Shown here: positions 2,602 through 25,134 of the stretch, in pieces | Layout: each line of letters opens with the position of its first letter | Position numbering within the stretch: the first letter of the stretch is position 1 | NCBI RefSeq assembly: GCF_008727875.1 | Contig: NZ_VTWS01000005.1 | Coordinates: 62,001-126,000, forward strand | From: Larkinella humicola | Lineage (GTDB): Bacteria > Bacteroidota > Bacteroidia > Cytophagales > Spirosomataceae | Length of the DNA: 64,000 nucleotides | Reading direction: 5' to 3' | Notes under the pieces: generated by a model | What the model saw: only the letters and a program-made list of their open reading frames with translations | Told to the model about the DNA's origin: nothing | Database searches by the model: none | Translations under genes and position numbers: made by a program

Positions 2602-2694
2602 ATGCCTACCCATTCTATTCTGTCCCGCTGCGAGCCTGCTCAGGCCCGGCCCCTTGCCCTCCGATGTTGTCAAACCACCGGACAACGCGGTTAG
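2602..2694 (+). CDS. 30-aa Cys-Cys micro-ORF (putative leader peptide), copy 1
   Basis: A 31-codon frame (ATG 2602, TAG 2692-2694) encodes a peptide whose core ALRCCQ and ending TGQRG match the paralogue at 19870-19962. The two peptides have equal length and share 16 of 30 residues, including R9-C10 and R21-C22-C23-Q24. The 18 nt encoding ALRCCQ are identical. The gap from the micro-ORF stop to the downstream TlpA-like start is 152 bp here and 151 bp in the other copy. The paired TGT codons lie in or next to the 5' arm of a small stem GTTGTC...GACAAC, so ribosome position could change folding. I infer a cysteine-responsive or redox-responsive leader peptide. An RNA element conserved for another reason is the alternative. 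Confidence 0.6.
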   Translation: MPTHSILSRCEPAQARPLALRCCQTTGQRG

Positions 2695-2846: not shown

Positions 2847-4142
2847 ATGAAAGTAAAACCATTCCTTGCTCTGTGCAGCGTCGGCGCTGCGATCCTGACG
2901 GGCAACGGCGCGCAGGCTCAGGACAAAACCATCAAAACCGGCATCTGGCGGGGCGAATTCGTTATCAGCGAGACCAAAATTCCGTTCAATTTTGAGTATA
3001 CCGCTCAGGACAGGGTGCAGCCGATTCTGACGCTACTCAACGGAACGCGTCGCGACGACTTCAAAGTGCAGCAAATCGGCCCGGATTCGATCTTTGTCAA
3101 AATGAACACCTACGACGCAGCCTTGGTAGCCCGCGTAGAATCCGACGGCAAAATTACCGGCGAATACCGGAGTCTGGTTCCCGGTTTTCGGGGAAATTCG
3201 CTTCCGTTTGTGGCCGAACACGGGAAAAACTACCGCTTTGTCGAATACGGAAAAGAACAGCCTACGAACCACAACCTGACGGGCAAGTGGGACCTGAAAA
3301 TCTACAGCAAAGCCAAACTACCGGACAACGTGGCGCTGTTGAAACAGGAAGGCAATAAGCTAACCGGCGTGGTGATGTCGACAGTGGGCGACAGCCGCGA
3401 ACTGGAAGGCGTTGTGCAAGGTGATGAGTTTGTGCTCTCGCATTTCTCCGGCCCGAATCCGCGCGTTTACCGGGGCAAAATCAACGAAGACGGTTCCATC
3501 ACCGGCGAGCTGAGTTCCGGCATTTATAACAGCACCAAGTTTGAAGGCATTCCCAGCAAAACCGTTGAGTTGCCCGACCCGTATAAGATTACCTACCTGA
3601 AAGAAGGCTACAAGAAGCTGGATTTTACACTGCCCGATCTGGATGGAAAGCAAGTCTCATTGTCGGACAACAAGTACAAAGGCAAGGTGGTCATTGTCGA
3701 AATCATCGGAACCTGGTGCCCGAACTGCACCGATCAGACGGCATTCCTCTCACCCTGGTTCAAGGCCAACAAAAACCGGGGCGTGGAAGCCATTGCCATT
3801 GGATTTGAGCAGAAAGACGACCTGGCCTACGCCAAATACACGCTCGGTACGCTTCGGAAAAAATACGGCATCGAGTACGATATCCTGTTCGGTGGCATTG
3901 CCGACAAGAAGGTGGCTTCCGAAAAACTGCCCGCACTGAACCAAATGATGGCTTTTCCGACCACGATCATCATCGACCGGAAGGGCGAGGTTCGGCAGAT
4001 TCATACCGGCTACACGGGCGAAATCACGGGTGAGTATTTTAAAAACTACGTTACCAAGTGGAACCAGGATCTGGATGCCCTGATCGCCGAACCGGTTCCG
4101 GCCGACCTGTCAAAAGCCCGGGCATCGAGACAATCGGAATAA
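2847..4142 (+). CDS. TlpA-like periplasmic thioredoxin with duplicated N-terminal beta domains, paralogue 1
   Basis: The 431-residue protein has a signal peptide (1-24, ending AQA). Two similar beta-rich domains follow (about 30-138 and 145-240; the first begins GIWRGEF, the second GKWDLKI). The C-terminal redoxin/TlpA domain (about 255-410) carries WCPNC with Cys291 and Cys294 and the cis-proline region FPTTIII. TlpA-like proteins reduce or shuttle disulfides in the periplasm. The beta domains are not ones I can name. Two close paralogues lie at 18441 and 22937. Its signal-peptide DNA is identical to that of the 18441 copy. It is followed by a DsbD N-terminal-like gene and preceded by a Cys-Cys micro-ORF, suggesting thiol or sulfur stress as the context. 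The redox fold is firm; the substrate is unknown. Confidence 0.9.
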   Translation: MKVKPFLALCSVGAAILTGNGAQAQDKTIKTGIWRGEFVISETKIPFNFEYTAQDRVQPILTLLNGTRRDDFKVQQIGPDSIFVKMNTYDAALVARVESDGKITGEYRSLVPGFRGNSLPFVAEHGKNYRFVEYGKEQPTNHNLTGKWDLKIYSKAKLPDNVALLKQEGNKLTGVVMSTVGDSRELEGVVQGDEFVLSHFSGPNPRVYRGKINEDGSITGELSSGIYNSTKFEGIPSKTVELPDPYKITYLKEGYKKLDFTLPDLDGKQVSLSDNKYKGKVVIVEIIGTWCPNCTDQTAFLSPWFKANKNRGVEAIAIGFEQKDDLAYAKYTLGTLRKKYGIEYDILFGGIADKKVASEKLPALNQMMAFPTTIIIDRKGEVRQIHTGYTGEITGEYFKNYVTKWNQDLDALIAEPVPADLSKARASRQSE

Positions 4143-4225: not shown

Positions 4226-4705
4226 ATGAATCCGTTTACAATAAGACGTCTTTGCCGAAATTCAGGCGCCATCCTGCTGTTCGTTTCCACGGTTGCCTGT
4301 GCGCAGGAGGCCGCAGACATTACCAAATGGAACGTTCGGCTATCAAAACCTACGGCCAAACCGGGTGAGGTGGTGGATATCATCTTTTCGGCAACCATCA
4401 ATGATACCTGGAAGTTATACTCTTCTGATTTTGCGAGTGATATTGGCCCGCTACCGACGGAATTCAACTTCGACAAGGCCACTTCCTACGCGTTGGTCGG
4501 GTCGGTTCAGGCCATCCATCCGAAGAAAACCGTTGATCCGGCCTGGGATCAACCCTACACGTATTTTGCAAAGAAGGCCGAATTCCGGCAGAGAGTCAAG
4601 GTGCTCACCACCGGCTATCAGGTTAAAGGTACGATTAAGGGCCTGCTTTGCAGTTCTAAAAATGGCCTTTGCATTCCGTTTTCGGAACCGTTTTCGGTGC
4701 AGTAG
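4226..4705 (+). CDS. Secreted DsbD N-terminal-domain-like protein (both cysteines present)
   Basis: A 159-residue product with a signal peptide (about 1-27, ending VACAQ) and a single immunoglobulin-like domain. It resembles the N-terminal periplasmic domain of thiol:disulfide interchange protein DsbD, with LYSSDF early and LLCSSKNGLCIPF near the C-terminus supplying the two cysteines. The membrane and C-terminal thioredoxin domains of DsbD are absent, so it is a stand-alone domain. I chose ATG 4226 because it begins the signal peptide; an upstream in-frame extension runs back into the TlpA-like gene and looks non-coding. A paralogue at 17150 lacks one cysteine. It may exchange electrons with the adjacent TlpA-like protein (inference). 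Confidence 0.8.
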   Translation: MNPFTIRRLCRNSGAILLFVSTVACAQEAADITKWNVRLSKPTAKPGEVVDIIFSATINDTWKLYSSDFASDIGPLPTEFNFDKATSYALVGSVQAIHPKKTVDPAWDQPYTYFAKKAEFRQRVKVLTTGYQVKGTIKGLLCSSKNGLCIPFSEPFSVQ

Positions 4706-4913: not shown

Positions 4914-4928
4914 CTATTTAATCAATAG
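4914..4928. promoter_or_regulatory. CTAT-N7-ATAG box upstream of SusC
   Basis: CTATTTAATCAATAG has 5-bp arms and lies 72 bp before the SusC start at 5000. It matches the box form seen at 2434, 2795, 19756 and 25120. No clear -33/-7 pair at the conserved spacing follows, so its role here is less certain. Confidence 0.4.
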
Positions 4929-4999
4929 ACAATACCTACTTTTTTTCTATTTTTCTCCTTTTACGTGGCACGATACACCATTTACCAATCAAAACACCT

Positions 5000-7900
5000 A
5001 TGACAGTACTTGTATCACCCAGCAAATTACGGGTTTGGTTACTGGCGATCTGGCTGCTGCCGCTGCTGGCCAGAGCCCAGGATCGAACCATCTCGGGAAC
5101 CATCCGGGACGAAAAAAATGAAGCCATTCCGGGCGCTTCGGTCATCGTTAAAAATAGCCAGACCGGTTTGACCTCGGGAACCCTCAGCGATGCAACCGGT
5201 GCGTTCAAGGTCAGTAACCTGCCCACCGGCAACGCCTTCTCCGTGATCATTTCCTTTATTGGTTACGAAACGCAGACCCTGCCCAACGTCCGGCCCGGAC
5301 AAGCGCCCCTGTCGGTCCAGTTGAAAGAATCGGCGTCTGTTCTGGAACAGGTCGTCGTGATTGGGTATGGTAGCCAGCGGAGACGCGAAATTACCGGCGC
5401 CATTGCCTCCGTTCGGGCCGCCGAGTTGAAAGACCAGCCCGTTGCCAATCTGGAACAGGCCATCGCCGGCAAACTGGCGGGGGTGCAGGTGCTGCAAAAT
5501 TCCGGGGCACCCGGTGGCAGCATGAGCATCCGGATTCGGGGACTCAATTCCATTTCGGCCGGCACCGATCCGCTGTACGTAATCGACGGTTTTCCGATTT
5601 CCAACGACCTGAAAAACCTGCAGGGCAGCACGGACCTGATCAATATTTCCGGCATCTCTTCCTTCCAGAAATCGCCGAACCCGATGAGCACACTGAACCC
5701 CGACGACATCGAGTCGATCGAGGTACTGAAAGATGCGTCGGCCGCGTCCATTTACGGGTCGCGGGCGTCCAACGGCGTCATTCTGGTGACGACCAAACGG
5801 GGCAAAAAAGACGGCAAACCGACGTTCAGCTACAGTTCATACGGCGGGGTGCAACAGGCGAGTCATACGATCAAACTCATGGATGCCTACCAGTGGTCAC
5901 AGTTGGTGCTGGATGGCAAAAACAACGCGTACCTGGATGCCAACCCACGGGCCAGCATCAACGATGACAATACGGTTCGGGCTAGTTCCACCTACCAGAT
6001 TCCGCCGGAAATCCTCCCCTACCTCGCCAAAACGCCCGGTTTGACCACTACCGACTGGCAGGACGCCATTTTCCGCAATGCCGCCATTCAGAACCATACC
6101 CTTTCGGCGTCGGGCGGAACCGACAAGGTCCAGTATTACATCTCCGGCAATTATTTTGATCAGCAAGGAATTGTCATCGCATCCGGGTACAAGCGCTACG
6201 GCGTCCGCACCAACCTGACGGCCAGTCTGACCTCCAAATTGAAGGTAGGTCTGGGGTTCAACCCGACGGTCGATCACTACGATCTGGTGAACACGGAAGG
6301 GCCGTTTATCTACGACGGCATTATCGACAACGCCCTCAAAGCCGCTCCTATTTTCCCGGTTTATAACCCGGACGGATCGGTCGCCATCAACAAGCAAAAC
6401 GCCATTGCCTACGGTTTTTCGGGCGGTGAAAACCCGGTTGCTCTGGCTACGCAGATCAAAGACAAACTCAACCACGTCCGCTTGCTGGGCAATATTTTTG
6501 GTGAATACGAAATCATCAACGGTTTGACGTTCAAGACTTATTTTGCGTCCGACCTCAACTATTTCGGCCGAAACTACTACCGCCCGTCTACCCTCGGAGC
6601 CTACCGCCCGATCCAGCAGAATGCTCCGACCATTCCCAAAGGCTCGGCGCAGAACGCCAGCGCCCGGAACTGGCTGTGGGAAAACACATTGACGTATGCG
6701 TTCACGTTAAAAGAAGCGCATAGGTTTAATGTGTTACTGGGCTATACCTCCCAGAAAAACCGGACGGACGCCAGCCAGGTCGATGGTACGGGTTTCCCCA
6801 ACGATGCGGTTCAGACCATCAATGCGGCCACCATCACGAGCGGCACGTCCTCGGCTTCGGAGTGGTCACTCCTGTCCTATTTGGGACGCATCAACTACAA
6901 TTTTTCCGATCGGTATTTCCTTTCCGCCAGCCTGCGCCGGGATGGTTCGTCGCGGTTTGGAGCCAACAACAAATGGGGCTATTTTCCGTCGGTTTCGGGG
7001 GCCTGGCTGATCAGCGGGGAGAATTTCTTCAAGATTCCGGCCATCACCGAACTGAAGCTGCGCGCCAGCTACGGATTAACCGGCAATTTCCAGATCGACA
7101 ACTACGGTTCGCTCGATTTACTCCGGGCCAACAACTACATTCTGGGTGCCGGAACGGGCACGACCAACAACGGCGTCGGGTTGTCGCAACCGGCCAATCC
7201 GGATCTAACCTGGGAAAAGACTTCGCAGTTCAACGCCGGTCTGGACCTGGGGCTGTTCCGGGGGCGGATTTACCTGTCGGCGGATTTTTACAAGAGTGTC
7301 ACCAAAGACCTGCTGCTGTCGGTGAATGTGCCGTTGAGCTCCGGTTTTGCGACGGCGCTGCGGAATGTCGGCAGTGTACAGAATACCGGTGTGGAACTGG
7401 GTTTGACCACCCACAACCTGGAAGGTGCGTTTAAATGGAACACCAATTTCAACATCTCGGCCAACCGGAACAAAGTCCTGCAGCTCGGCCCGAACGGCGC
7501 ACCGATCATTTCCGACGGCGGGGTTGCCAGCATTTTTATCACGCAAATTGGTTCGCCGATCGGCAATTATTACGGCTACGTCAACGGGGGCGTCTTTAAA
7601 AACCAGTCCGAAATCGATGCCTATCCACACTACGCCACCACCAAACCGGGCGACCGGAAGTTCATCGACGTGAACGGCGACGGCAAAATTGACGCCAACG
7701 ACCGGACCATCATCGGCAGTTATTTTCCCAAATTTATCTGGGGGCTGACCAACGACTTCCGGTACAAAGGGGTTGACCTGGCGGTTTCGCTGCAAGCCGT
7801 GCAGGGCAGCAAAATTCTGAACCTGCAACGCCGGTATATCTACAACCTGGAAGGCAACGCCAACCAGATGATCGAAGCGTTGAACTACTGGAAATCGCCC

Positions 7901-8230
7901 ACCGAACCGGGCGACGGCAACACCACGCGGGCGAATCGGGTGACCAATGCCAACAGCGGCCAGATCAGCTCGTTCCACGTCGAAGATGGATCGTATGTCC
8001 GGCTGCGGAACGTAACGCTGGGGTATAGCCTCAACCGAAAATGGTTTTCTGACAAAATCAGCACCGCCCGGATTTATTTCACCGCCCAGAATCTGCACAC
8101 CTGGACGAAGTACACCGGCTACAATCCGGAGGTGAACGCCCGGCCGGAAAGCCCCCTGTCGCAAGGCGAAGACTACGGAACCTATCCCCTGTCGCGAACC
8201 TACACACTGGGCCTCAATCTTTCATTCTAA
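5000..8230 (+). CDS. SusC/RagA family TonB-linked outer membrane receptor
   Basis: A full-length 1076-residue SusC. It has a signal peptide (1-27, ending ARAQ), a carboxypeptidase-like regulatory domain (about 30-112), a plug with SIRIRGLNS, PLYVIDG and IESIEVLKDASAASIYGSRASNG, and a beta-barrel ending in an aromatic residue (LGLNLSF). It forms the barrel of an outer membrane importer energised by TonB. The SusD partner gene follows after 11 bp, so the two are surely co-transcribed. No glycoside hydrolase, sulfatase or regulator is adjacent, so the substrate cannot be guessed from context. A CTAT-N7-ATAG box lies just upstream, raising the possibility of co-regulation with the neighbouring thiol genes. 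Confidence 0.97.
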   Translation: MTVLVSPSKLRVWLLAIWLLPLLARAQDRTISGTIRDEKNEAIPGASVIVKNSQTGLTSGTLSDATGAFKVSNLPTGNAFSVIISFIGYETQTLPNVRPGQAPLSVQLKESASVLEQVVVIGYGSQRRREITGAIASVRAAELKDQPVANLEQAIAGKLAGVQVLQNSGAPGGSMSIRIRGLNSISAGTDPLYVIDGFPISNDLKNLQGSTDLINISGISSFQKSPNPMSTLNPDDIESIEVLKDASAASIYGSRASNGVILVTTKRGKKDGKPTFSYSSYGGVQQASHTIKLMDAYQWSQLVLDGKNNAYLDANPRASINDDNTVRASSTYQIPPEILPYLAKTPGLTTTDWQDAIFRNAAIQNHTLSASGGTDKVQYYISGNYFDQQGIVIASGYKRYGVRTNLTASLTSKLKVGLGFNPTVDHYDLVNTEGPFIYDGIIDNALKAAPIFPVYNPDGSVAINKQNAIAYGFSGGENPVALATQIKDKLNHVRLLGNIFGEYEIINGLTFKTYFASDLNYFGRNYYRPSTLGAYRPIQQNAPTIPKGSAQNASARNWLWENTLTYAFTLKEAHRFNVLLGYTSQKNRTDASQVDGTGFPNDAVQTINAATITSGTSSASEWSLLSYLGRINYNFSDRYFLSASLRRDGSSRFGANNKWGYFPSVSGAWLISGENFFKIPAITELKLRASYGLTGNFQIDNYGSLDLLRANNYILGAGTGTTNNGVGLSQPANPDLTWEKTSQFNAGLDLGLFRGRIYLSADFYKSVTKDLLLSVNVPLSSGFATALRNVGSVQNTGVELGLTTHNLEGAFKWNTNFNISANRNKVLQLGPNGAPIISDGGVASIFITQIGSPIGNYYGYVNGGVFKNQSEIDAYPHYATTKPGDRKFIDVNGDGKIDANDRTIIGSYFPKFIWGLTNDFRYKGVDLAVSLQAVQGSKILNLQRRYIYNLEGNANQMIEALNYWKSPTEPGDGNTTRANRVTNANSGQISSFHVEDGSYVRLRNVTLGYSLNRKWFSDKISTARIYFTAQNLHTWTKYTGYNPEVNARPESPLSQGEDYGTYPLSRTYTLGLNLSF

Positions 8231-8241
8231 CGAAACCGATC

Positions 8242-9723
8242 ATGAACTATACACGAATGATCCGATTGCTTTGGCTGGTCGGAACCGCCGGAATCCTGGG
8301 TTCCTGCCAGGACGATTTCATCAATCTGGCGTCCATTTCCAACCAGACCAGTTCCACCTTTTTCAAGTCCGCGTCTGATTTTCAGCAGGGCGTCAATGCC
8401 ATTTATGATGGGTTGCAAAGCCCGCAGACGTATGGAAAAGCCTATTATTACCTGATGGAAGTCCGCAGTGACAACACCGACATTGGCGACCGGGGGGCCA
8501 ACGCCGGAATCGCTTCACAGGTGGATCTGTTCACCGAAATCACCAGCAATCCGTTCGTGCTGGACGCTTACGCGGGTTCGTATGTGATCATTGCCCGGGC
8601 CAATGCGGTGCTGGATCGGATCGACGGAGCCACCATCGACGAAACGGCGAAAAAACAGTTTAAAGGAGAAGCCCTGTTTCTGAGATCATTAGCCTACTTC
8701 AATCTCGTGCGCTTATACGGAAAAGTGCCGCTGGTGGTTCGGACGGAGTCGCCCAACGAATCGTTGAATGCCCGGCGGAACGAGGTGTCGGAAATCTACG
8801 CCCAAATCGAAACCGACCTCAAAACGGCAGCCGGTTTGTTACCCGTTTCCTATACCGCAGCCACCGACCTGGGTCGGGCCACCAGCGGGAGTGCCAGCGC
8901 CTTGCTGGGCAAAGTGTATGTGACGGAGAAAAAATGGAGTGATGCCACCACCGTATTAAAAACCGTGTTGCCCACCTATTCGCTGCTGCCCACTTATGCC
9001 GATTTGTTCAGAGCGGAAAGCCCGATTACCGCCGAAACCATCTTTGCCGTTCGGTTCCGGAAAGGCCAAAGCCCCTCGGAAGGAAACCTGTATTTCAACG
9101 ACATGATGCCGTTGATCTATGTGAACGGCATTTCGTATTCCGGGGCCGGAAACAACCGCCCCACCGCCAACATCGCCAAAGCCTACGAACCGGGTGACAA
9201 ACGGTTTGCGGCTTCGCTGGATACGTTGTATAACCGGACAGCCACGACCGTTGTGAAAGGGAATTACGTCAAAAAATACTTCGATCTGCCCGCAACGACC
9301 GGCGACGAAGGCAACAGTTTTCCGGTCTTGCGGTATGCCGACGTGTTGCTGTTGCTGGCCGAAGCCCTCAACGAACAGGGTTATTCGGCCGCAACGGCGG
9401 AAGGCAGTGCGCTGGGGTATTTGAATAAAGTTCGCAGCCGGGCGGGGCTGGCCGCCAAAACCGCTGCGGATTTACCGGGTCAGGAGGCCGTGCGGGACGC
9501 TATTTTTAAGGAACGACGGGTAGAACTGGCCTTTGAAAACGACCGCTGGTTCGATCTGATTCGAAATTCGAAAGCGTTGCCGGTTTTGCAAACGCACCTG
9601 GCGACGGAATACGGTTTAACAACGCCGGTTTTGACGGCCAACCGGTTGCTGTATCCGATTCCGCAACGTGAAATCGACGTTCACAACGATCTGACAGCGT
9701 TTCCACAGAATCCGGGCTACTAA
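8242..9723 (+). CDS. RagB/SusD family nutrient-binding outer membrane lipoprotein
   Basis: The 493-residue product begins with a lipoprotein signal peptide (lipobox LGSC, Cys22). It shows the SusD pattern: an N-terminal DDFINL segment, TPR-like helices in the first half (ALFLRSLAYFNLVRLYGKVPLV), and a C-terminal RagB segment with ERRVELAFENDRWFDLIRN and YPIPQREIDVHN. SusD caps the SusC barrel on the cell surface and binds substrate. It is the partner of the SusC gene 11 bp upstream and ends the operon as far as visible, since the next gene has its own spacing of about 120 bp. The family call is firm. Confidence 0.96.
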   Translation: MNYTRMIRLLWLVGTAGILGSCQDDFINLASISNQTSSTFFKSASDFQQGVNAIYDGLQSPQTYGKAYYYLMEVRSDNTDIGDRGANAGIASQVDLFTEITSNPFVLDAYAGSYVIIARANAVLDRIDGATIDETAKKQFKGEALFLRSLAYFNLVRLYGKVPLVVRTESPNESLNARRNEVSEIYAQIETDLKTAAGLLPVSYTAATDLGRATSGSASALLGKVYVTEKKWSDATTVLKTVLPTYSLLPTYADLFRAESPITAETIFAVRFRKGQSPSEGNLYFNDMMPLIYVNGISYSGAGNNRPTANIAKAYEPGDKRFAASLDTLYNRTATTVVKGNYVKKYFDLPATTGDEGNSFPVLRYADVLLLLAEALNEQGYSAATAEGSALGYLNKVRSRAGLAAKTAADLPGQEAVRDAIFKERRVELAFENDRWFDLIRNSKALPVLQTHLATEYGLTTPVLTANRLLYPIPQREIDVHNDLTAFPQNPGY

Positions 9724-9841
9724 TAACGACCGGAAAGGTAAAGTGGATACCAAAGGTGAAATCCGTTCTAGTTTTCGACGGCCAACGGGTGTTTTTTTGT
9801 ACCCAAAGTTCCGGGAGCAACAAGCGGAATTTTGGGCTACC

Positions 9842-10987
9842 ATGAAAGCACCCGTTTCGTATTCACTAATTGAATTGGTCCGTTATTTCCTGCGCCTGGG
9901 GACCCTCGGTTTCGGCGGACCACCGGCTTTGGTGAGCGCGATGCACCGCGATCTGGTGGTGGAGCGGGGGTGGATCACAGAAGCCGACTACCGGGAAGGG
10001 ATGGCGCTTGCCCAACTGGCTCCCGGCCCGCTGGCGGCCCAACTGGCGATTTACCTCGGTTATGTTCACTACGGAATCTGGGGAGCAACCCTGACGGGCG
10101 TGGCTTTCGTGCTGCCCTCGTTCGTGATCGTGCTCGCCCTGAGCTGGCTTTACGTCCGGTTTGAAGGGCTTCCCGGGCTACAGGCTAGCTTCTACGGCAT
10201 TGGAGCCGCCGTTATTGGAATCATTGCCATCGGCACTTATCGATTAACCATCAAAACCGTTGGAAATGACCGCCTGGGCTGGACACTCTTTTGTCTGTCT
10301 GCCCTGGCAACGGCGATTGCCGAATCAGAACTGCTGTGGCTGGTGCTGTTGTCGGGCGGTATTTACTGGTTCGTGAAAGCGCCCCCCGCGTTCATCCGGC
10401 CGGGCGTGGGCGGTAGTCTGGCCCCTTTTCTGACGCAGGTGCTGGCACTACCCCCGGATTCCGTGTTGTGGAAACTGGCGGTTTTCTTTACCAAAGCCGG
10501 GGCTTTTGTGTTTGGCAGCGGACTGGCCATTGTGCCGTTTTTATACGGTGGTGTCGTTAAAGAAAATGGCTGGCTGACCGAGCAGCAGTTTCTGGACGCG
10601 GTTGCCGTTGCAATGATTACGCCCGGCCCCGTTGTCATCACGGTTGCGTTTATCGGGTATCTGGTTGCGGGCTTGCCCGGTGCCTGTGTAGCGGCTCTGG
10701 CTACGTTTCTGCCCTGTTATGTGCTGACCATCCTGCCAGCACCTTACTTCAAACGGTGGGGCAAACACCCCGGCATCAAGGCGTTTGTGGACGGCGTAAC
10801 CGTGGCCGCCGTTGGAGCCATTGCCGGTGCCGTGTTCGTCTTGGGGCGTCGGCAACTGGTTGATGTGCCCGCCATGCTGATCGCGATCGGAACCGTTGGA
10901 GTGCTTTACCGGTTTAAGAAAATCCCCGAAATCGGTTTGATTGGAGCCGCTGCGGCAATAGGTTTGCTGCTTCGGTCTCTTCCCTGA
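9842..10987 (+). CDS. chrA: Chromate transporter, ChrA family (two CHR domains)
   Basis: About 381 residues with ten or so hydrophobic segments and a duplicated CHR domain. The first half has LGFGGPPALVSAM and LAPGPLAAQLAIYLGY; the second has FGSGLAIVPFLYGG and MITPGPVVITVAFIGYL. ChrA proteins extrude chromate and are related to sulfate uptake physiology. I chose ATG 9842 over the GTG at 9743, because the sequence between them shows no family resemblance and the first CHR domain starts right after 9842. A hairpin with a T-rich tail follows. The neighbouring cysteine desulfurase is convergent. Real substrate may be chromate or a related oxyanion. Confidence 0.9.
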   Translation: MKAPVSYSLIELVRYFLRLGTLGFGGPPALVSAMHRDLVVERGWITEADYREGMALAQLAPGPLAAQLAIYLGYVHYGIWGATLTGVAFVLPSFVIVLALSWLYVRFEGLPGLQASFYGIGAAVIGIIAIGTYRLTIKTVGNDRLGWTLFCLSALATAIAESELLWLVLLSGGIYWFVKAPPAFIRPGVGGSLAPFLTQVLALPPDSVLWKLAVFFTKAGAFVFGSGLAIVPFLYGGVVKENGWLTEQQFLDAVAVAMITPGPVVITVAFIGYLVAGLPGACVAALATFLPCYVLTILPAPYFKRWGKHPGIKAFVDGVTVAAVGAIAGAVFVLGRRQLVDVPAMLIAIGTVGVLYRFKKIPEIGLIGAAAAIGLLLRSLP

Positions 10988-13234: not shown

Positions 13235-15988
13235 TTACAGTTTGGCGGCTAGCCGAATGAAAGGTTGAATACCGGCGCTGCCGTTTTGAATACCGATGAC
13301 GGTTGGGTTGCGCAAACCCGCCAGCTTGGGATCGGTGTAGTCGCCGACGTTATTGAACGCGTTGTTGACACCGACCGTGGCCTGAACGGCGGGTGAAATG
13401 GTGTAGCTCACGGAGGCATCCGTCACCCAGATCGGTTTCAGCGTCTGGTAGAAATAATCCGGTTTGGGAAAGTTGGCATTCTGGGCCGACGCCGTGGTAA
13501 CGGAACCGAGATAGACCGTTCGCAGGAGGTACGTAAACCGCCCTTCGCGGAAGATGGCCTGCGCCGTAAGCTTCTGTCCGGGAATATTCGTCGTCACCCG
13601 CGCTTTTTCGCCGTCGTTGAAAATAATGTACTGATACGCTTCCAGCCCTTTCGGCGTATTGACCTGGATCACTTCGTTTTTCACAAAATTACCGCCCAGC
13701 AACACGTGGAGGTTGCCGTTTCGGAACGGCGTTCGGTAACTGCCTGTAAACTCGATGCCTTTGGTGCGGGTGCTGAACGAATTGTAGAAGAATTTTGCCT
13801 GAACCGTTCCGGTCTGGACAAACAGGTTACGCACTTCGAGAGGCAGATTGGCATCCGTTGCCGAAAAGTTGCCGGTATTTCCCACGCGGTTATCAACATC
13901 CACCCAATAAGCATCCGCCGTAAGTTCCAGATTCCGAACGGGTTGAGCCGTAAAACCAGCCGTATAGCCTTTCGATTTTTCCGGGGTCAGACTCGGAAAA
14001 CCCAGCGAGCGCGTGGCCGCACTTTTGTTGGATGCCGTGACGAGGTCGATGGCGCGGCCCTGCTGAAAGGTGGTCGACGTTTCGGTGTAATAGAACTGGG
14101 CCAGATCGGGCGCGCGAAACCCGGTGTTCAACGACCCCCGAATGCCGAGCCAGTCCGTAAAGCTGTACCGGGTAGCCACTTTATACGTCGTTACGTTCCC
14201 GAAATCCGAGAAATTCTCCACCCGCAACGCACCCGACAGCAGCCATTTTCGGGTAATATTCGCTTCCAGATCCAGGTAACCCGCCACAATTGCCCGATCG
14301 ACATTGACTTCATTGGAAGGCCGAAAACCGGCGTGAATCTGCGAACCGGGCGACAACCCGTTCAGGCCGATGCTACCGGTGGTGTTCAGGTACGTAATGC
14401 CGCCGGTAGTCGTATCCACGCGATATACCGGGCGCAAATCGGCTTTCGAGTACGAGGCTTCTTCACCCGCAATAATCTGGTAGGTTTCGACCCGGTATTG
14501 CGCACCAAAAGCCACGTTCACGCCCCGCAGTGCTTTGTCGAAATACCGGCTGAAATCCAGGCTGCCCGTGTTCTGGCTGGCGTTGTATTTTCCGGCGTCG
14601 AAGGTTGTAGGGCTTTTCAGACCCAGGCTGGCATTGATGGAGTTGGTGATGTAATTCCCGAAATCGTTCCGGCCGTAGACGTTCGACACATCGACGTTCC
14701 AGTTCCTGATGGTACCCTTGATGCCCACCGCCAGCGATTTGTCGGTAATGACATTTTCCATGGCGGGCAAAAAACCGTCGGGATACAGAAAGGCGTTGGT
14801 TCGCTCGGTCCAGCCCGGCAGCCGATACACCGCCGTAAACTGGGAAGTCCGGTGACTGATGCCGCCAAAGGCGTAGACCTCCGCGTCTTTCCGCAACGGA
14901 ATGGCCGAGTTGAAGAACAGCAGGGCGTCTTTCGCCTTGTTGGAACCGCCCCCCCGTTGATCGAAATGATGCCGGTCGAGCCCCCGGCTGGCCAGAATGG
15001 CATCGTCGATTTCTTGGGTATAAATGGCGTCGAAGGGGCGGGTGTTGGCTCCTCCGCCGTAGGCCGGGCCGTTGTACAAACCGGCCTCATCGCGGCCCGG
15101 TGGCAGCGAAATGCCCTGGGTGGCAAATTCGGCCGTTGCGTTCAGAAAACCGCCTTCTTTGCCCAGCGCAAACCCGTAGTTGGCGTTGGTGCGGGTGGTG
15201 ATGCCGTCGCCCCGGCGTCGGGCGCTGGCCGTGGTGCTAACGGCCAGTTCTTCGGTCGTTTTTCGCAACACGATGTTGATGACCCCCGCAATGGCGTCGG
15301 AACCGTATTGAGCGGCTGCCCCGTCGCGCAAAATCTCCACCCGCTCGATGGCCGCCGTCGGCAGCGAATTCAGGTCGTAGCCCGTTGTTCCGTTGCCCAA
15401 GCCGCCCCAGTTGACATTCGAGGATTTATGCCGCCGTTTGCCATTGACCAGAACGAGCACCTGATCGACCCCCAACCCGCGCAATTGCGACAGACTCAGA
15501 GCCGAACCCGCATCTCCGGCGTTGGTGCCGTTGACCGAGTGGTACGAAGGCGACACGTATTGCAGCAACTGGGTTATGCTCACCTGCGGAGCCGATTCGC
15601 GCAGCGGTTTCAGGTCGATCACATCGACCGGCACCGGCGAATCCAGCTTGGTCCGGTTGGCATTGCGGGAACCCACCACCTGAACTTCACCCAGAATCTG
15701 CGAAGCCACCACCAAGCGGATGTCGAGGGGGGAATCCGTGCGAACCTCCACCTCGCGGCTGTTAAACCCGATAAACGAGAAAACCAAAACCGAACCCCGG
15801 CCGGCCCGAATCGCAAACAGACCCGCTCCGTCGGTGGTGGTGCCCTGATTGGCTCCCTTAACCGTTACCGAAACCCCCGCCAGCGCAACGCCGTCTTCTG
15901 CCGCCGTTACTTTGCCGGTTATCGTGCGGTTCTGCCCCCAAGCAGCAAATGAAGTCAATATAATCAATAGAAGTAGTAGATTTTTCAT
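13235..15988 (-). CDS. TonB-dependent receptor with N-terminal carboxypeptidase-like domain
   Basis: 917 residues: signal peptide (1-18, ending AWGQ), a carboxypeptidase-like regulatory domain (about 20-105), a plug (about 115-240) with LGVDQVLVLVNGKRRH and IERVEILRDGAAAQYGSDAIAGVINIVLRK, then a barrel. The plug is of the classical TonB-dependent receptor type rather than SusC, and there is no SusD. Such receptors import siderophores, cobalamin, peptides or oligosaccharides. A DUF4397 lipoprotein gene follows 10 bp downstream. Upstream lie a di-haem peroxidase and DsbD-N-like gene on the same strand, separated by a palindromic repeat. Family certain, substrate unknown. Confidence 0.95.
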   Translation of the reverse strand: MKNLLLLLIILTSFAAWGQNRTITGKVTAAEDGVALAGVSVTVKGANQGTTTDGAGLFAIRAGRGSVLVFSFIGFNSREVEVRTDSPLDIRLVVASQILGEVQVVGSRNANRTKLDSPVPVDVIDLKPLRESAPQVSITQLLQYVSPSYHSVNGTNAGDAGSALSLSQLRGLGVDQVLVLVNGKRRHKSSNVNWGGLGNGTTGYDLNSLPTAAIERVEILRDGAAAQYGSDAIAGVINIVLRKTTEELAVSTTASARRRGDGITTRTNANYGFALGKEGGFLNATAEFATQGISLPPGRDEAGLYNGPAYGGGANTRPFDAIYTQEIDDAILASRGLDRHHFDQRGGGSNKAKDALLFFNSAIPLRKDAEVYAFGGISHRTSQFTAVYRLPGWTERTNAFLYPDGFLPAMENVITDKSLAVGIKGTIRNWNVDVSNVYGRNDFGNYITNSINASLGLKSPTTFDAGKYNASQNTGSLDFSRYFDKALRGVNVAFGAQYRVETYQIIAGEEASYSKADLRPVYRVDTTTGGITYLNTTGSIGLNGLSPGSQIHAGFRPSNEVNVDRAIVAGYLDLEANITRKWLLSGALRVENFSDFGNVTTYKVATRYSFTDWLGIRGSLNTGFRAPDLAQFYYTETSTTFQQGRAIDLVTASNKSAATRSLGFPSLTPEKSKGYTAGFTAQPVRNLELTADAYWVDVDNRVGNTGNFSATDANLPLEVRNLFVQTGTVQAKFFYNSFSTRTKGIEFTGSYRTPFRNGNLHVLLGGNFVKNEVIQVNTPKGLEAYQYIIFNDGEKARVTTNIPGQKLTAQAIFREGRFTYLLRTVYLGSVTTASAQNANFPKPDYFYQTLKPIWVTDASVSYTISPAVQATVGVNNAFNNVGDYTDPKLAGLRNPTVIGIQNGSAGIQPFIRLAAKL

Positions 15989-16087
15989 AAATGCGTTTGC
16001 CTGTTCAATACTCCCTCATGCCGACTCCCAAATGGAAGTCGGATGAAGAAGTGGGTACTACCAAATTTAAACCAACTAGATTTTTTT

Positions 16088-16170
16088 AGACAAGAGAGGA
16101 GAGACAAGAGAATAAAGACGCTCTATTACCCTGAAATTCAGCAAATTTCCCTACCCTTGCTCTCTTGTCT
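16088..16170. repeat. Imperfect palindrome with AGACAAGAGAG arms
   Basis: AGACAAGAGAG (16088-16098) pairs exactly with CTCTCTTGTCT (16160-16170). Further loosely paired purine/pyrimidine text includes a direct AGACAAGAGA copy at 16103. The right arm runs into the stop codon of the di-haem peroxidase. The form is like the palindromes at 57149 and 63915. Confidence 0.55.
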
Positions 16171-17153
16171 CACTTCTTTATTCTTTTCACAAACCGTTCA
16201 TCGGTCAGAGCGTGGAGGAACGCTTCCAGATCGGTGAGATCGTTTTCTGACAGATTCAGGGGTGTACTCAGCGACAGATCCCGGTTGTGGCCATTTCTGA
16301 CAAAATCATCCGGTTTGTTGTAATACTCAAGCACTTGCCGGAGTGTTTTGAACATCCCATTGTGCATATACGGCGCAGTTAACGCCACGTTTCTCAAACC
16401 CGGCACCTTGAAATGACCCAGTTGCGAACTGTCTTTGGTGACCGCAAACCGGCCCGGATCGGTTAATTTTTTACCATCGTACAACCCGATGTTCTTAAAC
16501 CGGTCGGCCGTAAAGTCTTCTCCCGCGTGACAATTGGCACAGTTGGCCCTACCGATGAACACTATACGTCCCCGTTGGGCGGCTGGCGACAGGGCGGTAT
16601 CGTCACCATTGATAAACCGGTCATACGGCGTATCGCTCGTCTCCAGCGTTCGCTCATACGTCGCCAGGGCGTCTGCCAGGGTCTTCTCCGACGCATTCGT
16701 ACGAAAGACGTTCCGGAAAGCCCGGGCATAATACGGATCGGCATTCAGACGGGATACGGCTTCGGCGATGGGCAGGTTCATTTCGTTCGGGGCGGCAATC
16801 GGCTGTAGAGCCTGCATTTCCAGAGACGACGCGCGCCCGTCCCAAAATAAATGAATTCGTCCTGCCAGATTCATCGCCGAAGGCGTATTTCGGTCCGTTA
16901 CCTGACCATTCACGCCCAGGCTCAAAACCATCGTGTCGGCAAAGGCAAACTCCGGTTTGTGGCAGGAGGCACAGCTAATGGTGCGGTTGGACGACAAAAT
17001 CGGATCGAAGAATAACTTTTCGCCCAGTTTGCTTTTCGTGAGCGGTTCGTCACCGGATTGATTTTCAGCAGGCCGGGGGGCAAAACTCAGTACAAAGAAT
17101 CCCGCACTGGCCAACAGGAAAATCTTTTTTTGCCAGGTTACCAAAGCTCTCAT
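16170..17153 (-). CDS. Di-haem cytochrome c peroxidase (CcpA/MauG family)
   Basis: 327 residues with an N-terminal signal segment (about 1-26) and two CxxCH haem c sites: CASCH at 61-65 and CANCH at 205-209. Other family marks are LGEKLFFDPILS, FWDGRASSLEMQA, and RNVALTAPYMHNGMFKTL near the C-terminus. The family reduces hydrogen peroxide in the periplasm or, in MauG-like members, oxidises other substrates. Its ATG overlaps the stop of the DsbD-N-like gene by 4 bp (ATGA), so the two are translationally coupled. That links peroxide removal and thiol chemistry in one operon. A second, longer paralogue is at 36248. Confidence 0.93.
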   Translation of the reverse strand: MRALVTWQKKIFLLASAGFFVLSFAPRPAENQSGDEPLTKSKLGEKLFFDPILSSNRTISCASCHKPEFAFADTMVLSLGVNGQVTDRNTPSAMNLAGRIHLFWDGRASSLEMQALQPIAAPNEMNLPIAEAVSRLNADPYYARAFRNVFRTNASEKTLADALATYERTLETSDTPYDRFINGDDTALSPAAQRGRIVFIGRANCANCHAGEDFTADRFKNIGLYDGKKLTDPGRFAVTKDSSQLGHFKVPGLRNVALTAPYMHNGMFKTLRQVLEYYNKPDDFVRNGHNRDLSLSTPLNLSENDLTDLEAFLHALTDERFVKRIKK

Positions 17154-17623
17154 TGGATTGAAAAAACAAACAGTTGTTCAAACGGCAGGCTCAGTCCTTT
17201 TTTTTCGCTGCAATACCGCCCCCGAATCACGCCTTTCACGATGTAGTCGGGACTCAGAACCCGAATGCGCTGCCGGAACTCGGCTTTCGACTCAAAGTAA
17301 GAAACCTCCACGCCCCCGGTTCGGTCTTTTTTTCGCCGGGGATCAACGGACCGGATTCCCCCCACCGTTTCGAATGAATCGTCAGGAATAATCTCGAACG
17401 TGGTCGGCGGAGGCCCCGCATCGGCCGAAAAATCGGACGAATAGACGAGCCATTCCGGGTCCAGGGTGGCCGTAAAAATCAAATCGATTTCGTCGCCCGG
17501 TTCCAGTTCCGCCGGGGCCAGCGTCGATGGGGTCGTTTTGAAAGTCCAATAGGCTACCGGCTTATCCGCCACGGCGCCCGCCAGCAGGAGGACCAGGGGA
17601 ATAAGAACAAGGAATCGTTTCAT
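17150..17623 (-). CDS. Secreted DsbD N-terminal-domain-like protein lacking the second cysteine
   Basis: A 157-residue paralogue of the 4226 gene with a signal peptide (about 1-19). Shared blocks are DLIFTATLDPEWLVYSSDF, KAEFRQRIRVLSPDYIVKG and a C-terminal LPFEQLF. Where the 4226 protein has C...GLCIPF, this one has RYCSEKKGLSLPF, so one of the two redox cysteines is replaced by serine/leucine context. Disulfide exchange by the classical DsbD-N mechanism should therefore be impossible; ligand binding or a mixed-disulfide role remains possible. It is coupled by a 4-bp overlap to the downstream di-haem peroxidase and lies next to YceI and a TlpA-like gene. Confidence 0.75.
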   Translation of the reverse strand: MKRFLVLIPLVLLLAGAVADKPVAYWTFKTTPSTLAPAELEPGDEIDLIFTATLDPEWLVYSSDFSADAGPPPTTFEIIPDDSFETVGGIRSVDPRRKKDRTGGVEVSYFESKAEFRQRIRVLSPDYIVKGVIRGRYCSEKKGLSLPFEQLFVFSIQ

Positions 17624-17647
17624 GCGAATGCCGTGGGTTTTGTTAGG

Positions 17648-17686
17648 GATTCTTCGGGAGCAGTTCGATCGATCTCCCGAAGAATC
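17648..17686. repeat. Perfect 13-bp intercistronic hairpin
   Basis: GATTCTTCGGGAG (17648-17660) pairs exactly with 17674-17686 across 13 nt, between YceI and the DsbD-N-like gene. There is no T-run on either side. It is comparable in position and form to the hairpin at 4168-4207. Confidence 0.6.
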
Positions 17687-17697
17687 TCCCGCCCTGA

Positions 17698-18324
17698 TCA
17701 GCGACTGGCTTTCAGCTCCGGATTGGTGGCAACCAGCGATACATCCAGCGTAAAATTGTCGTCGATGGCTTTGTCACCCAGGTTTTCGAAGAAGTTTTTC
17801 GATCGGAATTTGATGTCGTATTTCGTCCGGTCAACGGTCACTTTGGCCGTAGCCGTCAGCTTGTCTTTGTCGGTTCTGACCAGTGCCGGGAATTTCACTT
17901 CGTTGGTGATGCCTTTGATGGTCAATTTCCCGACGACGTCATAGTTGCCATCACCGGACGGACTCGCCGATGTGATGACCAGTTTGGCCGTCGGGTGTTT
18001 CTCTACCGAAAAGAAATCGTCACTTTTCAGGTGCGTCGTCAATTTGGCATTGTAGTCGGGGTCCGTCAAATCCGTCACGGTCAACGCTTTCAGGTTGACA
18101 TCAATGGAACCGCCTTTGAGCCGGCCGCCATCAAGCACGACAGAACCGCTGCTAACCGGTGCCAGGCCTGCGTGTTCGCCCGTTACTTTTTTAGCGTTCC
18201 AGACCAGCTTACTCTGCTGGGGATCGACCTTGTAGGTGGTTTCTTTGACTTTTTTGTCGCCGGGGTTCGTAAACGAAACAAACGAAAGAGCGGCCAGACC
18301 GAGGAGTACGAATGTGTTTTTCAT
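17698..18324 (-). CDS. YceI family periplasmic lipocalin-like protein
   Basis: 208 residues from ATG 18324, with a signal peptide (about 1-20). The mature domain follows the YceI pattern: TYKVDPQQSKLVWNAKKVTGEHAG, a central DLTDPDYNAKLTTHLKSDDFF, GKLTIKGITNEVKFP, and a final RTKYDIKFRSKNFFENLGDKAIDDNFTLDV. YceI proteins bind polyisoprenoids and are often induced by stress. A longer upstream frame to 18507 is only an open extension through the terminator and is rejected. The gene sits between a TlpA-like gene (upstream, separated by a terminator) and the DsbD-N/di-haem peroxidase pair. Confidence 0.92.
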   Translation of the reverse strand: MKNTFVLLGLAALSFVSFTNPGDKKVKETTYKVDPQQSKLVWNAKKVTGEHAGLAPVSSGSVVLDGGRLKGGSIDVNLKALTVTDLTDPDYNAKLTTHLKSDDFFSVEKHPTAKLVITSASPSGDGNYDVVGKLTIKGITNEVKFPALVRTDKDKLTATAKVTVDRTKYDIKFRSKNFFENLGDKAIDDNFTLDVSLVATNPELKASR

Positions 18325-18360
18325 GAGAATGCAGGTTTTATGCGTAAATTGGTTTGATTC

Positions 18361-18430
18361 AAAAAAGCCGGGAGGAGCCGCGACGACGAACCGTCGACCA
18401 CTCGGGCGCTGTCTGACGGCACTCCCGGCG
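18361..18430 (-). terminator. Terminator after the second TlpA-like gene
   Basis: On the minus strand GCCGGGAG and CTCCCGGC close a long stem containing an inner GACGG/CCGTC-type pairing, and TTTTTT follows. It lies immediately after the stop codon at 18441, so the TlpA-like gene is probably monocistronic apart from read-through to YceI. Confidence 0.75.
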
Positions 18431-18440
18431 GCAGATACCG

Positions 18441-19718
18441 TTAGCGTGCGGCCAGGGCATCCTTTGGAGCAGGTTCGGCAATGTATTTGTCGAGATCCCG
18501 GTTCCATTTCTTCACGTATTGCTTGAAATACTTGCCGGTAACTTCTCCGGTATAGCCGGTGTGAATTTGCCTGACGGTTCCATCGCGGCCAATGATGATG
18601 GTGGTAGGAAAAGCCATCATGCGGTTGAGCGACGGGAATTTCCCGGAGGCCACCTTCTTGTCGGCAATGCCGCCAAACAGAATGTCATACTCGATCTTGT
18701 ACTTATCCCGCAGCTTGCCGAGCGTATAGCGGGCGTATTCCAGGTCGTCTTTCTGTTCGAAACCGACCGCAATCGCTTCCACGCCCCGGTTTTTGTTTTC
18801 CCTGAACCAGGGCGAGAGAAAGGCCGTCTGATCGGTGCAGTTCGGGCACCAGGTTCCGATGATTTCGATGATCACCACTTTGCCTTTGTATTTGGCATCA
18901 CTCAGCGAAACCGGATTACCGTTCAGATCCGGCAATGAAAAATCAAACGTGGAAACGCCCTCTTTCAGGTGCGTCAGCGCATACGGATCGGGCAAATCGG
19001 CTTTCCGGTCTTTTACGCCTTCAAATTTCTGGTTGAGGTAAATGCCAAACCCCATTTCGCCCGACAGCGATTTATCGTCGTTGATCGTCCCCCGAACAAT
19101 TATGGGTGATGGGCCCGTAAAACCGGATAGCACAAAGTTTTTACCCTGCACGGTTCCCTCCAGTTCGCGGGTATCGCCCACCACCGACATGATTACACCG
19201 GTCAGTTTGTTGCCTTTCTGTTCCAGCAGGGCCAGGCGGCCCGGTGTGGCGTCCTTGCTGATGATGTTCAGCTTCCATTTACCCGACAGGTTTGCTGCGG
19301 GTTCCTGATCTTTGCCCGGTTCAACGAAGCGGTAGGATTTGCCGTGTTCGGCCACGAACGGGAGCGAATTGCCCCGCAAGCCCGGAACCAGACTCTTGTA
19401 GGCTCCCGTCAGCGTGCCATCGTCTTCGATCTTTGCCACCAGAGCCGCATCGTAGGTATTCATTTTGATGAACAGCGAATCCGGAGTGGTCTGTTTGACA
19501 ACAAAATAATCCCGGCGCGTGCCGTTGAGGAGCGCGAAGGAAGCCTCCGACGCTTTTTGTCCTTTTACCTCAAAATTGAACGGAACCTGCACTTCGTTGA
19601 CGGTGAATACCCCCCGCCAGATGCCTTCTTTGATGAATTTGTCCTGAGCCTGCGCGCCGTTGCCCGTCAGGATCGCAGCGCCGACGCTGCACAGAGCAAG
19701 GAATGGTTTTACTTTCAT
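18441..19718 (-). CDS. TlpA-like periplasmic thioredoxin with duplicated N-terminal beta domains, paralogue 2
   Basis: 425 residues, same build as the 2847 protein: signal peptide (1-24), two beta domains (about 30-135 and 143-238) and a redoxin domain with WCPNC (Cys291, Cys294) and FPTTIII. The first 27 codons and the 14 nt before them are identical in DNA to the 2847 copy, whereas the remainder has drifted. It is preceded by a paralogous micro-ORF and promoter. Downstream, beyond a terminator, lie YceI, DsbD-N-like and di-haem peroxidase genes. The function is expected to be periplasmic disulfide reduction, perhaps with the stand-alone DsbD-N domains. Biological partner is inferred only. 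Confidence 0.9.
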   Translation of the reverse strand: MKVKPFLALCSVGAAILTGNGAQAQDKFIKEGIWRGVFTVNEVQVPFNFEVKGQKASEASFALLNGTRRDYFVVKQTTPDSLFIKMNTYDAALVAKIEDDGTLTGAYKSLVPGLRGNSLPFVAEHGKSYRFVEPGKDQEPAANLSGKWKLNIISKDATPGRLALLEQKGNKLTGVIMSVVGDTRELEGTVQGKNFVLSGFTGPSPIIVRGTINDDKSLSGEMGFGIYLNQKFEGVKDRKADLPDPYALTHLKEGVSTFDFSLPDLNGNPVSLSDAKYKGKVVIIEIIGTWCPNCTDQTAFLSPWFRENKNRGVEAIAVGFEQKDDLEYARYTLGKLRDKYKIEYDILFGGIADKKVASGKFPSLNRMMAFPTTIIIGRDGTVRQIHTGYTGEVTGKYFKQYVKKWNRDLDKYIAEPAPKDALAAR

Positions 19719-19755
19719 GGTACCTGTTTTTTGAAATTATGGCGAGTTTGATTTA

Positions 19756-19770
19756 CTATAGTATTCATAG
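19756..19770. promoter_or_regulatory. CTAT-N7-ATAG box between micro-ORF and TlpA-like gene (copy 2)
   Basis: On the minus strand it reads CTATGAATACTATAG, identical to the box at 2795-2809. It lies in a longer imperfect palindrome 38-62 bp before the gene at 19718. Conservation between the two otherwise diverged leaders suggests function. Confidence 0.5.
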
Positions 19771-19869
19771 CGAATAAGTATAGTAATAGGGCAAAAAATA
19801 GAACTGTTTCCGTTCGAGGAATTTAGCGACGCAGGCAATCGGTAAAAACCGGAAAAGGGAAAAACAGGT

Positions 19870-19962
19870 CTAACCGAGTTGACCGGTGGCTTGACAACAT
19901 CGGAGGGCAACAGACTGGTCCTGATCAGGCGCGCAGCGGTATTGGAAAAGAGACGTAGACAT
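19870..19962 (-). CDS. 30-aa Cys-Cys micro-ORF (putative leader peptide), copy 2
   Basis: A 31-codon frame from ATG 19962 to TAG at 19870, encoding a peptide with YRCAPD, VALRCCQ and a TGQLG ending. Differences from copy 1 (2602-2694) preserve length and reading frame. The gap to the TlpA-like start (151 bp) also matches. Arg-Cys at 9-10 and Arg-Cys-Cys at 21-23 are invariant. The region around the TGT TGT codons can form a small stem with the sequence just before the stop, with one mismatch here. I infer a leader peptide that regulates the downstream thiol-redox gene. Translation is unproven. Confidence 0.6.
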   Translation of the reverse strand: MSTSLFQYRCAPDQDQSVALRCCQATGQLG

Positions 19963-20062
19963 GGAGGTTGTAAATTTATAATTCTCAGGGATCAGCAAGT
20001 TCGTTGCTCCCTTTCCGATATAAATCCACAAGTACTTTGCAGGTAGTAATTGTAAGACGCTG

Positions 20063-20116
20063 TAAAGATAAGGGCATGAATTTTGATTTTCCAAACTTAT
20101 TCTACAAAATTTATAG
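20063..20116 (-). promoter_or_regulatory. Promoter with CTAT-like box for the second micro-ORF/TlpA-like operon
   Basis: On the minus strand CTATAAATTTTGTAG (20116-20102, one arm mismatch) is followed by TTTG (20095-20092), a 21-nt spacer and TATCTTTA (20070-20063). This repeats the order and spacing of the promoter at 2434-2488. The box also stands 28 bp before a perfect TAnnTTTG element of the divergent AhpD-like gene. Confidence 0.7.
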
Positions 20117-24175: not shown

Positions 24176-24207
24176 AAAGTACAATTCATTTTAGGTTGTC
24201 GATGTCA

Positions 24208-25089: not shown

Positions 25090-25119
25090 TTTTTACAGCA
25101 ATTCATTAATACACTTATC

Positions 25120-25134
25120 CTATATATTTTATAG
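25120..25134. promoter_or_regulatory. CTAT-N7-ATAG box upstream of TauE/SafE gene
   Basis: On the minus strand it reads CTATAAAATATATAG, very close to the box at 2434-2448. Unlike that site it lies so near the start codon (31 bp) that the conserved 21-nt promoter spacing would place the transcript start inside the gene. A repressor or roadblock role is as likely as activation. Confidence 0.5.

Follow-up and report, generated by a model that had tools for sequence, protein, structure and literature searches.

Polycysteine leaderless ORFs of mycobacteria were reportedly described by Canestrari and colleagues in 2020 (cited in PMC13236596). Cysteine-codon leader peptides are known from the Actinobacteria (PMC1262725), where, as far as the available portion of that source goes, a short ORF with cysteine codons, placed near its stop, precedes sulfur genes. 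In the Rhodobacterales, ribosome-mediated attenuation has been proposed for a cysteine-codon leader, the uORFC-8-2 motif before cysS, whose uORF has two tandem Cys codons and which carries its own terminator-like stem with a U run, the available text mentioning no riboswitch (PMC8632094). For the Bacteroidota, the accessible part of one report suggests leader-peptide attenuation of amino-acid operons in Flavobacterium psychrophilum (PMC9723704). A different kind of upstream ORF is represented by the CutF-type copper-sensing protein, which is exported, has a copper site and, according to the available text, regulates the next gene by translation (PMC9973294). Cysteine leaders are known elsewhere, and their combination with a SAM riboswitch is apparently undescribed, since no account that pairs a Bacteroidota SAM riboswitch with a Cys leader was found in the part of the open-access literature that was searched.

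The window analysed here, a stretch of 64,000 nucleotides from Larkinella humicola, contains a pair of micro-ORFs that resemble these systems in part. As the original prediction stated, two 30-codon frames with 16 of 30 residues identical are present, one at 2602-2694 on the forward strand (copy 1, MPTHSILSRCEPAQARPLALRCCQTTGQRG, with cysteines at codons 10, 22 and 23 and the motif RCEPAQAR) and one at 19870-19962 on the reverse strand (copy 2, MSTSLFQYRCAPDQDQSVALRCCQATGQLG, with RCAPDQDQ and RCC), and the distance from the micro-ORF stop to the ATG of a TlpA-like gene is indeed 152 bp in copy 1 and 151 bp in copy 2. They are like the actinobacterial leaders in being short ORFs with Cys codons in a sulfur-linked setting and like uORFC-8-2 in their tandem Cys codons; unlike the former they belong to another phylum and encode different peptides, and the available actinobacterial and mycobacterial descriptions mention no riboswitch in front, while uORFC-8-2 differs in its terminator-like stem and in controlling cysS. 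With CutF they would share the control of a next gene by an upstream ORF, but the window has a micro-ORF in a sulfur setting.

Comparison of positions 2450-2846 with the organism's own genome (7.86 Mb) matches the query itself and copy 2, the latter aligning with query bases 7-397 (of 397), 77% of them identical. The equal length and spacing of the two frames were correctly measured, but since the whole upstream region is a duplication they were inherited with it and do not count as independent evidence. Aligned with each other, the two copies share their promoter and hairpin, the leader, a gene-proximal dyad and the codons of the signal peptide. In copy 1 (forward strand) a palindromic operator (2434-2449, CTATAAATAATATAGA) lies directly upstream of a promoter (2456-2488, TTTG ... 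TATCTTTA, by eye) that we take to be of the Bacteroidota type; a 5' UTR hairpin (2499-2522, AATTACT..AGTAGTT, by eye) follows near the presumed transcript start, and between leader and gene there is a near-perfect dyad (2780-2811) that may be either operator-like, with two mismatches, or an RNA hairpin. The TlpA-like (AhpC-TSA) gene identified by domain search (2847-4142) is followed by a gene for a DsbD_N-like protein (4226-4705; 27.4 bits, cut-off 25) and by a SusC/SusD outer-membrane uptake pair (5000-9723; SusC 5000-8230, SusD 8242-9723). The reverse-strand counterparts are the operator (20101-20116, CTATAAATTTTGTAGA), an identical promoter -7 element (20063-20070, TATCTTTA, by eye), the 5' UTR hairpin (20030-20052, by eye), the dyad (19753-19786) and a TlpA-like gene (18441-19718) whose protein is 71% identical to that of copy 1, with genes for YceI, a DsbD_N-like protein (20.8 bits, below the cut-off of 25), a di-haem peroxidase and a TonB receptor downstream (13235-18507). 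By eye, the first 27 codons of the TlpA paralogues, encoding the signal peptide, are identical in DNA (2847-2927 and 19718-19638), although the identity of the whole proteins is only 71%, which suggests gene conversion of the 5' ends.

We consider it probable, though well short of certain, that the micro-ORFs encode cysteine-responsive leader peptides in a sulfur-uptake locus that has been duplicated, and that they derive from a module of SAM riboswitch and leader peptide; the responsiveness itself we infer. The parts of the locus that would serve uptake of sulfur compounds are the TlpA-like thiol-redox protein, its DsbD-like partner and the SusC/D importer. If charged tRNA-Cys became scarce, a ribosome translating the leader would slow at Cys10 and at Cys22-Cys23, the RNA between leader and gene would shift, and the TlpA operon would be expressed, the effect being exerted perhaps through translational control or Rho. 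A regulator binding the palindrome would form a second, transcriptional layer.

The stem GTTGTC...GACAAC proposed earlier exists in copy 1, but copy 2 reads GTCAAC and the stem is not conserved; there a different hairpin folds across the same Cys codons. Two further candidates, an intrinsic terminator in the copy 1 leader and unusually stable folding, were rejected, the first by a scan of that leader that found none and the second by comparison of the folds of both leaders with shuffled sequences (z from -0.08 to -1.07). Terminators are missing from the actinobacterial cys leaders too, and the mycobacterial ones likewise have no conserved terminator hairpin, in the available part of the literature on them (PMC1262725).

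Substitutions between the copies had been put forward as coding evidence, and this argument fails. The pair differs by 5 synonymous and 16 non-synonymous changes in the micro-ORF frame (pS 0.219, pN 0.238; no synonymous excess), mismatches fall on the three codon positions as 7/9/5, and pN/pS is even lower in each of the remaining two frames (0.215/0.280 and 0.191/0.329). The window pair by itself does not prove coding. The equality of pS and pN favours an explanation in which the ORFs are non-functional, mere frames left by duplication or conversion of a leader with a decayed riboswitch, and the operator alone regulates. Such an outcome seems to us unlikely, given that both frames have stayed open with Cys-Cys, start and stop intact despite divergence to 77%, and that the Cys codons lie within the longest identical run of the ORF; the loss of the riboswitch core with retention of the operator, described below, speaks on its side.

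The descent of the cysteine-responsive leaders that we propose is indicated by another locus of the same genome. Both window leaders align with the SAM-I locus L187 over the operator, the promoter, the AATTACT hairpin, the GATTTA sequence and the micro-ORF start, and the alignment also keeps part of the P2 purine tract and the 3' P1 flank; the riboswitch interior is missing. Flanks and P1 can thus be aligned with a bona fide member of the SAM-I family (RF00162). The remnant in copy 1 (2541-2589, forward) comprises the 5' flank GATTTA, a purine tract and the 3' flank CTATA, with the core lost, and that in copy 2 (19973-20026, reverse) comprises P1 (TTTATA/TATAAA) and a P2-like hairpin fold, with the rest of the core lost. 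The window leaders therefore look like decayed SAM riboswitch leaders tied by a common operator to a SAM locus, a relationship that the original prediction had missed. The ancestral module would have consisted of operator, promoter, 5' hairpin, SAM-I riboswitch and a short ORF about 10 nt after the aptamer; it is still intact elsewhere in the genome and in relatives, the core having gone and the ORF having stayed in the window copies. A hidden SAM riboswitch in the window was rejected: the Rfam SAM-I model gave no match there at gathering score, cmscan of both leaders, with E values as high as 10 allowed, returned nothing for SAM, the core string GTGC[TC] is absent from both copies, and AGCAAC occurs in copy 2 only. 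In this the window copies differ from relatives that match the model fully at the homologous place and often have a micro-ORF after the aptamer.

Three SAM-I sites were found in the genome, none of them on the window's contig. One (L188) lies before metY, with the micro-ORF MTNIRCCMPPAGY starting 6-14 nt after the aptamer, and at L187 the riboswitch is followed by MKTQTTQQRCDPDQDWHLCPIR, by a terminator-like hairpin (by eye) and by a convergent gene. The pattern RC[AD]PDQD, searched for in 222 family genomes, occurs at 11 sites distributed over 10 of them and at none in the reversed control, namely one in each of the 9 genus genomes, window copy 2 and one in genome G220. Nine of the ten sites outside the window are contained in our set of SAM loci, and the tenth (in G008) was judged by its similar-looking flanks. 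At the nine, an RCDPDQDWHL ORF of 22-29 codons stands after a SAM-I riboswitch. Of the 8 genus loci read farther downstream, 7 have a hairpin (by eye) and the same convergent gene after the ORF, the exception being L284 (G006), and in G220 a same-strand gene takes the place of the convergent one. We regard the ORF in this position as a candidate SAM-controlled micropeptide gene.

Protein-level selection, not seen between the two window copies, is strong in this homologous core. All ten residues of RCDPDQDWHL are identical in the 10 homologues outside the window, encoded by 8 distinct DNA versions whose variable columns fall on codon positions as 1/0/9. As far as sequence can tell, the RCDPDQDWHL ORF is translated and selected, and the window ORFs accordingly derive from a coding element. 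Invariance of the whole core, beyond its Cys, together with a hairpin and a convergent gene that leave no obvious cis target in 7 of 8 genus loci, is what one might expect of a peptide that acts by its sequence, through nascent-chain arrest or as a small peptide in trans, and not through Cys-tRNA supply. We think this improbable for the window, where the copies hold part of the core only (RCEPAQAR and RCAPDQDQ) and have RCC, and where comparison with other lineages shows the Cys cluster only.

The peptides of the homologues differ from those of the window. No copy of ALRCCQ beyond the two was found in the organism's own genome, where the coding pattern LRCCQxxGQ has exactly two matches, both window copies; what the homologues' peptides have in common is Cys clusters or the RC-PDQD motif. 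A looser 15-nt LRCCQ pattern was uninformative (68 matches against 65 in the reversed control, in 9 same-genus genomes), and an NCBIfam search with both peptides gave 0 hits.

Cysteine-rich micro-ORFs as such do recur before TlpA-like genes. Homologous loci were taken from named genomes (67) and from 9 genus and 222 family genomes (44 more, some of them the same places), and 40 further stretches were added; of the 151 TlpA loci, 136 were kept after removal of those alike in their last 200 nt, and the loci within a 62% identity cut of our own choosing, 86 loci including both window copies, are called close homologues. A Cys cluster was defined as at least four Cys in six residues of an ATG ORF of 5-60 codons within 520 nt upstream. 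It is found in 14 of the 86 unique close homologues, against 0 of 86 on the antisense strand (even at three Cys) and 0.07 expected from shuffles. When up to 2.4 kb upstream are considered, the cluster is present in 28 of 86 close homologues in sense and in 0 of 86 antisense, and 58 of 86 have none within that distance; a control of 294 kb running from the gene start onwards has one such locus per strand. Such recurrence in part of these relatives, in other Bacteroidota, supports the original prediction in this respect. More distant TlpA groups have a cluster of four in 0 of 19 and 0 of 31 loci; at three Cys there is one sense locus in each group and one antisense locus in the group of 31. The window copies, with one Cys pair and one further Cys, hold no such cluster even at three, which counts against our reading. 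In 12 of 18 Cys-cluster rows the distance from the leader stop to the gene is 118-136 nt, which argues against the view that the window frames are non-functional leftovers.

The Cys-rich micro-ORFs of relatives are mutually unrelated in sequence, CCCMCM and CTCCC being among their clusters; examples are MNAKLFACNARCCTCCC from Siphonobacter, MYNFLRSSGCMPCCCR from Chitinophaga, MKNLKFCCCMCM from Pedobacter and one with RCCCCVQFAFWF from Mucilaginibacter. Eleven loci have more Cys-rich micro-ORFs, of other sequence, 1.4-2.3 kb upstream of the TlpA-like gene, where they precede whichever gene comes before TlpA; ..MRCCCCCI and ..FCCYCHC are examples from Mucilaginibacter.

SAM-I riboswitches were found by Rfam in 14 of 20 hand-picked homologous loci. 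In 8 of these the riboswitch starts no more than about 370 nt before the TlpA-like gene, and in the rest it lies more than 1.5 kb upstream, past another gene-sized stretch. The setting is sulfur-linked, in support of the original prediction: such riboswitches occur before some TlpA, SusC, YceI, metY and nifS genes of relatives. The riboswitch directly precedes the Cys micro-ORF in Siphonobacter (L003) and in Mucilaginibacter (L043), and in Pedobacter (L054) the Cys ORF precedes the riboswitch instead of following it. Of the 14 TlpA loci whose Cys cluster lies no farther than 520 nt upstream, at least two also have a SAM element in that stretch, as judged by a regular expression that missed L054 and L064.

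The position of the micro-ORF relative to the aptamer was compared in 120 SAM loci, reduced to 114 non-redundant ones. Sixty of the loci were extra ones hand-picked for genus spread among the matches listed, so that class frequencies are not unbiased; the classes metY, metH, metB, nifS, SusC, TlpA and YceI were set by short recognised sequence motifs, and 19 of 114 loci stay 'other', some of which, L238 among them, carry a leader of the same type. In this partly picked sample 29 of 34 metY and 9 of 9 RCDPDQD loci have the ATG of a micro-ORF 6-14 nt after the aptamer, so that the leader start beside the aptamer is fixed in these two classes; the same spacing is found in 3 of 4 TlpA, 2 of 7 SusC, 1 of 2 YceI, 2 of 5 nifS, 0 of 3 metB, 0 of 31 metH and 3 of 19 other loci; three more SusC loci and one more YceI locus have the ATG at +23. 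Cysteine is concentrated in the reading frame of the SAM-linked TlpA leaders (four ORFs; fraction 0.212 against 0.032 and 0.065 in the other forward frames), SusC leaders (five ORFs; 0.151 against 0.035 and 0.009) and YceI leaders (two ORFs; 0.140 against 0.055 and 0.055), and is hardly enriched in the 29 metY ORFs (0.072 against 0.062 in frame +1 and 0.028). Across these 40 SAM-linked ORFs, the Cys content is above the mean of the other five frames in 32 and below it in 6. The RCDPDQD ORFs have one or two spaced Cys only, and one reverse frame holds 18 Cys against 16 in the ORF frame; at three Cys the metY leaders give clusters in 6 of 34 antisense against 5 of 34 sense, in stretches of 300 nt that can run into metY. 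Eight metY-type leaders have a conserved hairpin, ACGAAAACCGGGAGGGTTTGTCGT with small changes, after the micro-ORF, which is possibly part of an attenuator; RNAalifold, run on ten metY leaders, yielded a weak consensus that contains a single modest hairpin.

We propose, more tentatively than the cysteine-responsive leaders of the window and with some doubt outweighing our belief, that the Bacteroidota have a two-input RNA device in which P1 of a SAM-I riboswitch gates a Cys-rich leader. Where relatives have kept the aptamer intact, SAM would be expected to shut P1 beside the leader start codon and the leader would be read at low SAM only, so that sulfur genes (metY and the TlpA/SusCD importers) would be expressed only under a joint shortage of SAM and charged tRNA-Cys. 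The orphan SAM-controlled RCDPDQDWHL micropeptide gene would be one subclass, and the window would represent the device minus its SAM half. If this is true, one Bacteroidota transcript reads two linked metabolites, SAM by aptamer and cysteine by translation, and the device offers a way into the regulation of TlpA/SusCD loci whose substrate is unknown, pointing to organosulfur uptake. The clustered Cys, and the TlpA/DsbD-like thiol-redox genes and TonB receptors downstream, would also suit a cluster that responds to thiol stress or to a metal, for instance copper, in the manner of CutF-type upstream proteins; this we hold to be very improbable, as the SAM riboswitches and the association with metY and nifS point to sulfur amino acids and the leaders have no obvious signal peptide (by eye).

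The palindromic operator links the window leaders to the SAM loci from another side. The pattern CTATARANNNTRTAGA has three sites in 7.86 Mb, at both window leaders and at L187, but it was widened after the window sites were known and is thus fitted, an earlier form ending in ATT having matched L187 only. When up to two mismatches are allowed, all 9 RCDPDQD loci have the operator in the 150 nt before the aptamer, as do 3 of 4 TlpA, 2 of 5 nifS, 1 of 2 YceI and 1 of 7 SusC loci; none of the 34 metY, 31 metH, 3 metB and 19 other loci has it there. Anywhere within 650 nt, with near-gene dyads included, it is present in 40 of 86 close TlpA homologues. The operator without cluster or SAM element is the commonest arrangement (29 of the 48 close homologues with any of the three), which lends some weight to regulation by the operator alone; 38 of 86 have no operator, SAM element or Cys cluster in the nearer stretches, a count that speaks against our reading.

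Within the window, a looser search with up to three mismatches gave 28 operator matches against 5.4 expected, many of them being both strands of one dyad. The sites include a weak one with three mismatches upstream of SusC (4914-4929, forward), another weak one over the 5' end predicted for the gene of the second TonB receptor, and one with a single mismatch (25119-25134, reverse) that precedes by 30 bp the TauE gene and a gene for a third redoxin. At 22937-25089 this third, more distant TlpA-like redoxin has the TauE/SafE exporter gene as its neighbour, with a gene for a short-chain dehydrogenase close by. A gene of the chromate-transporter family, whose carriers can move sulfate, follows SusC/D at 9743-10987.
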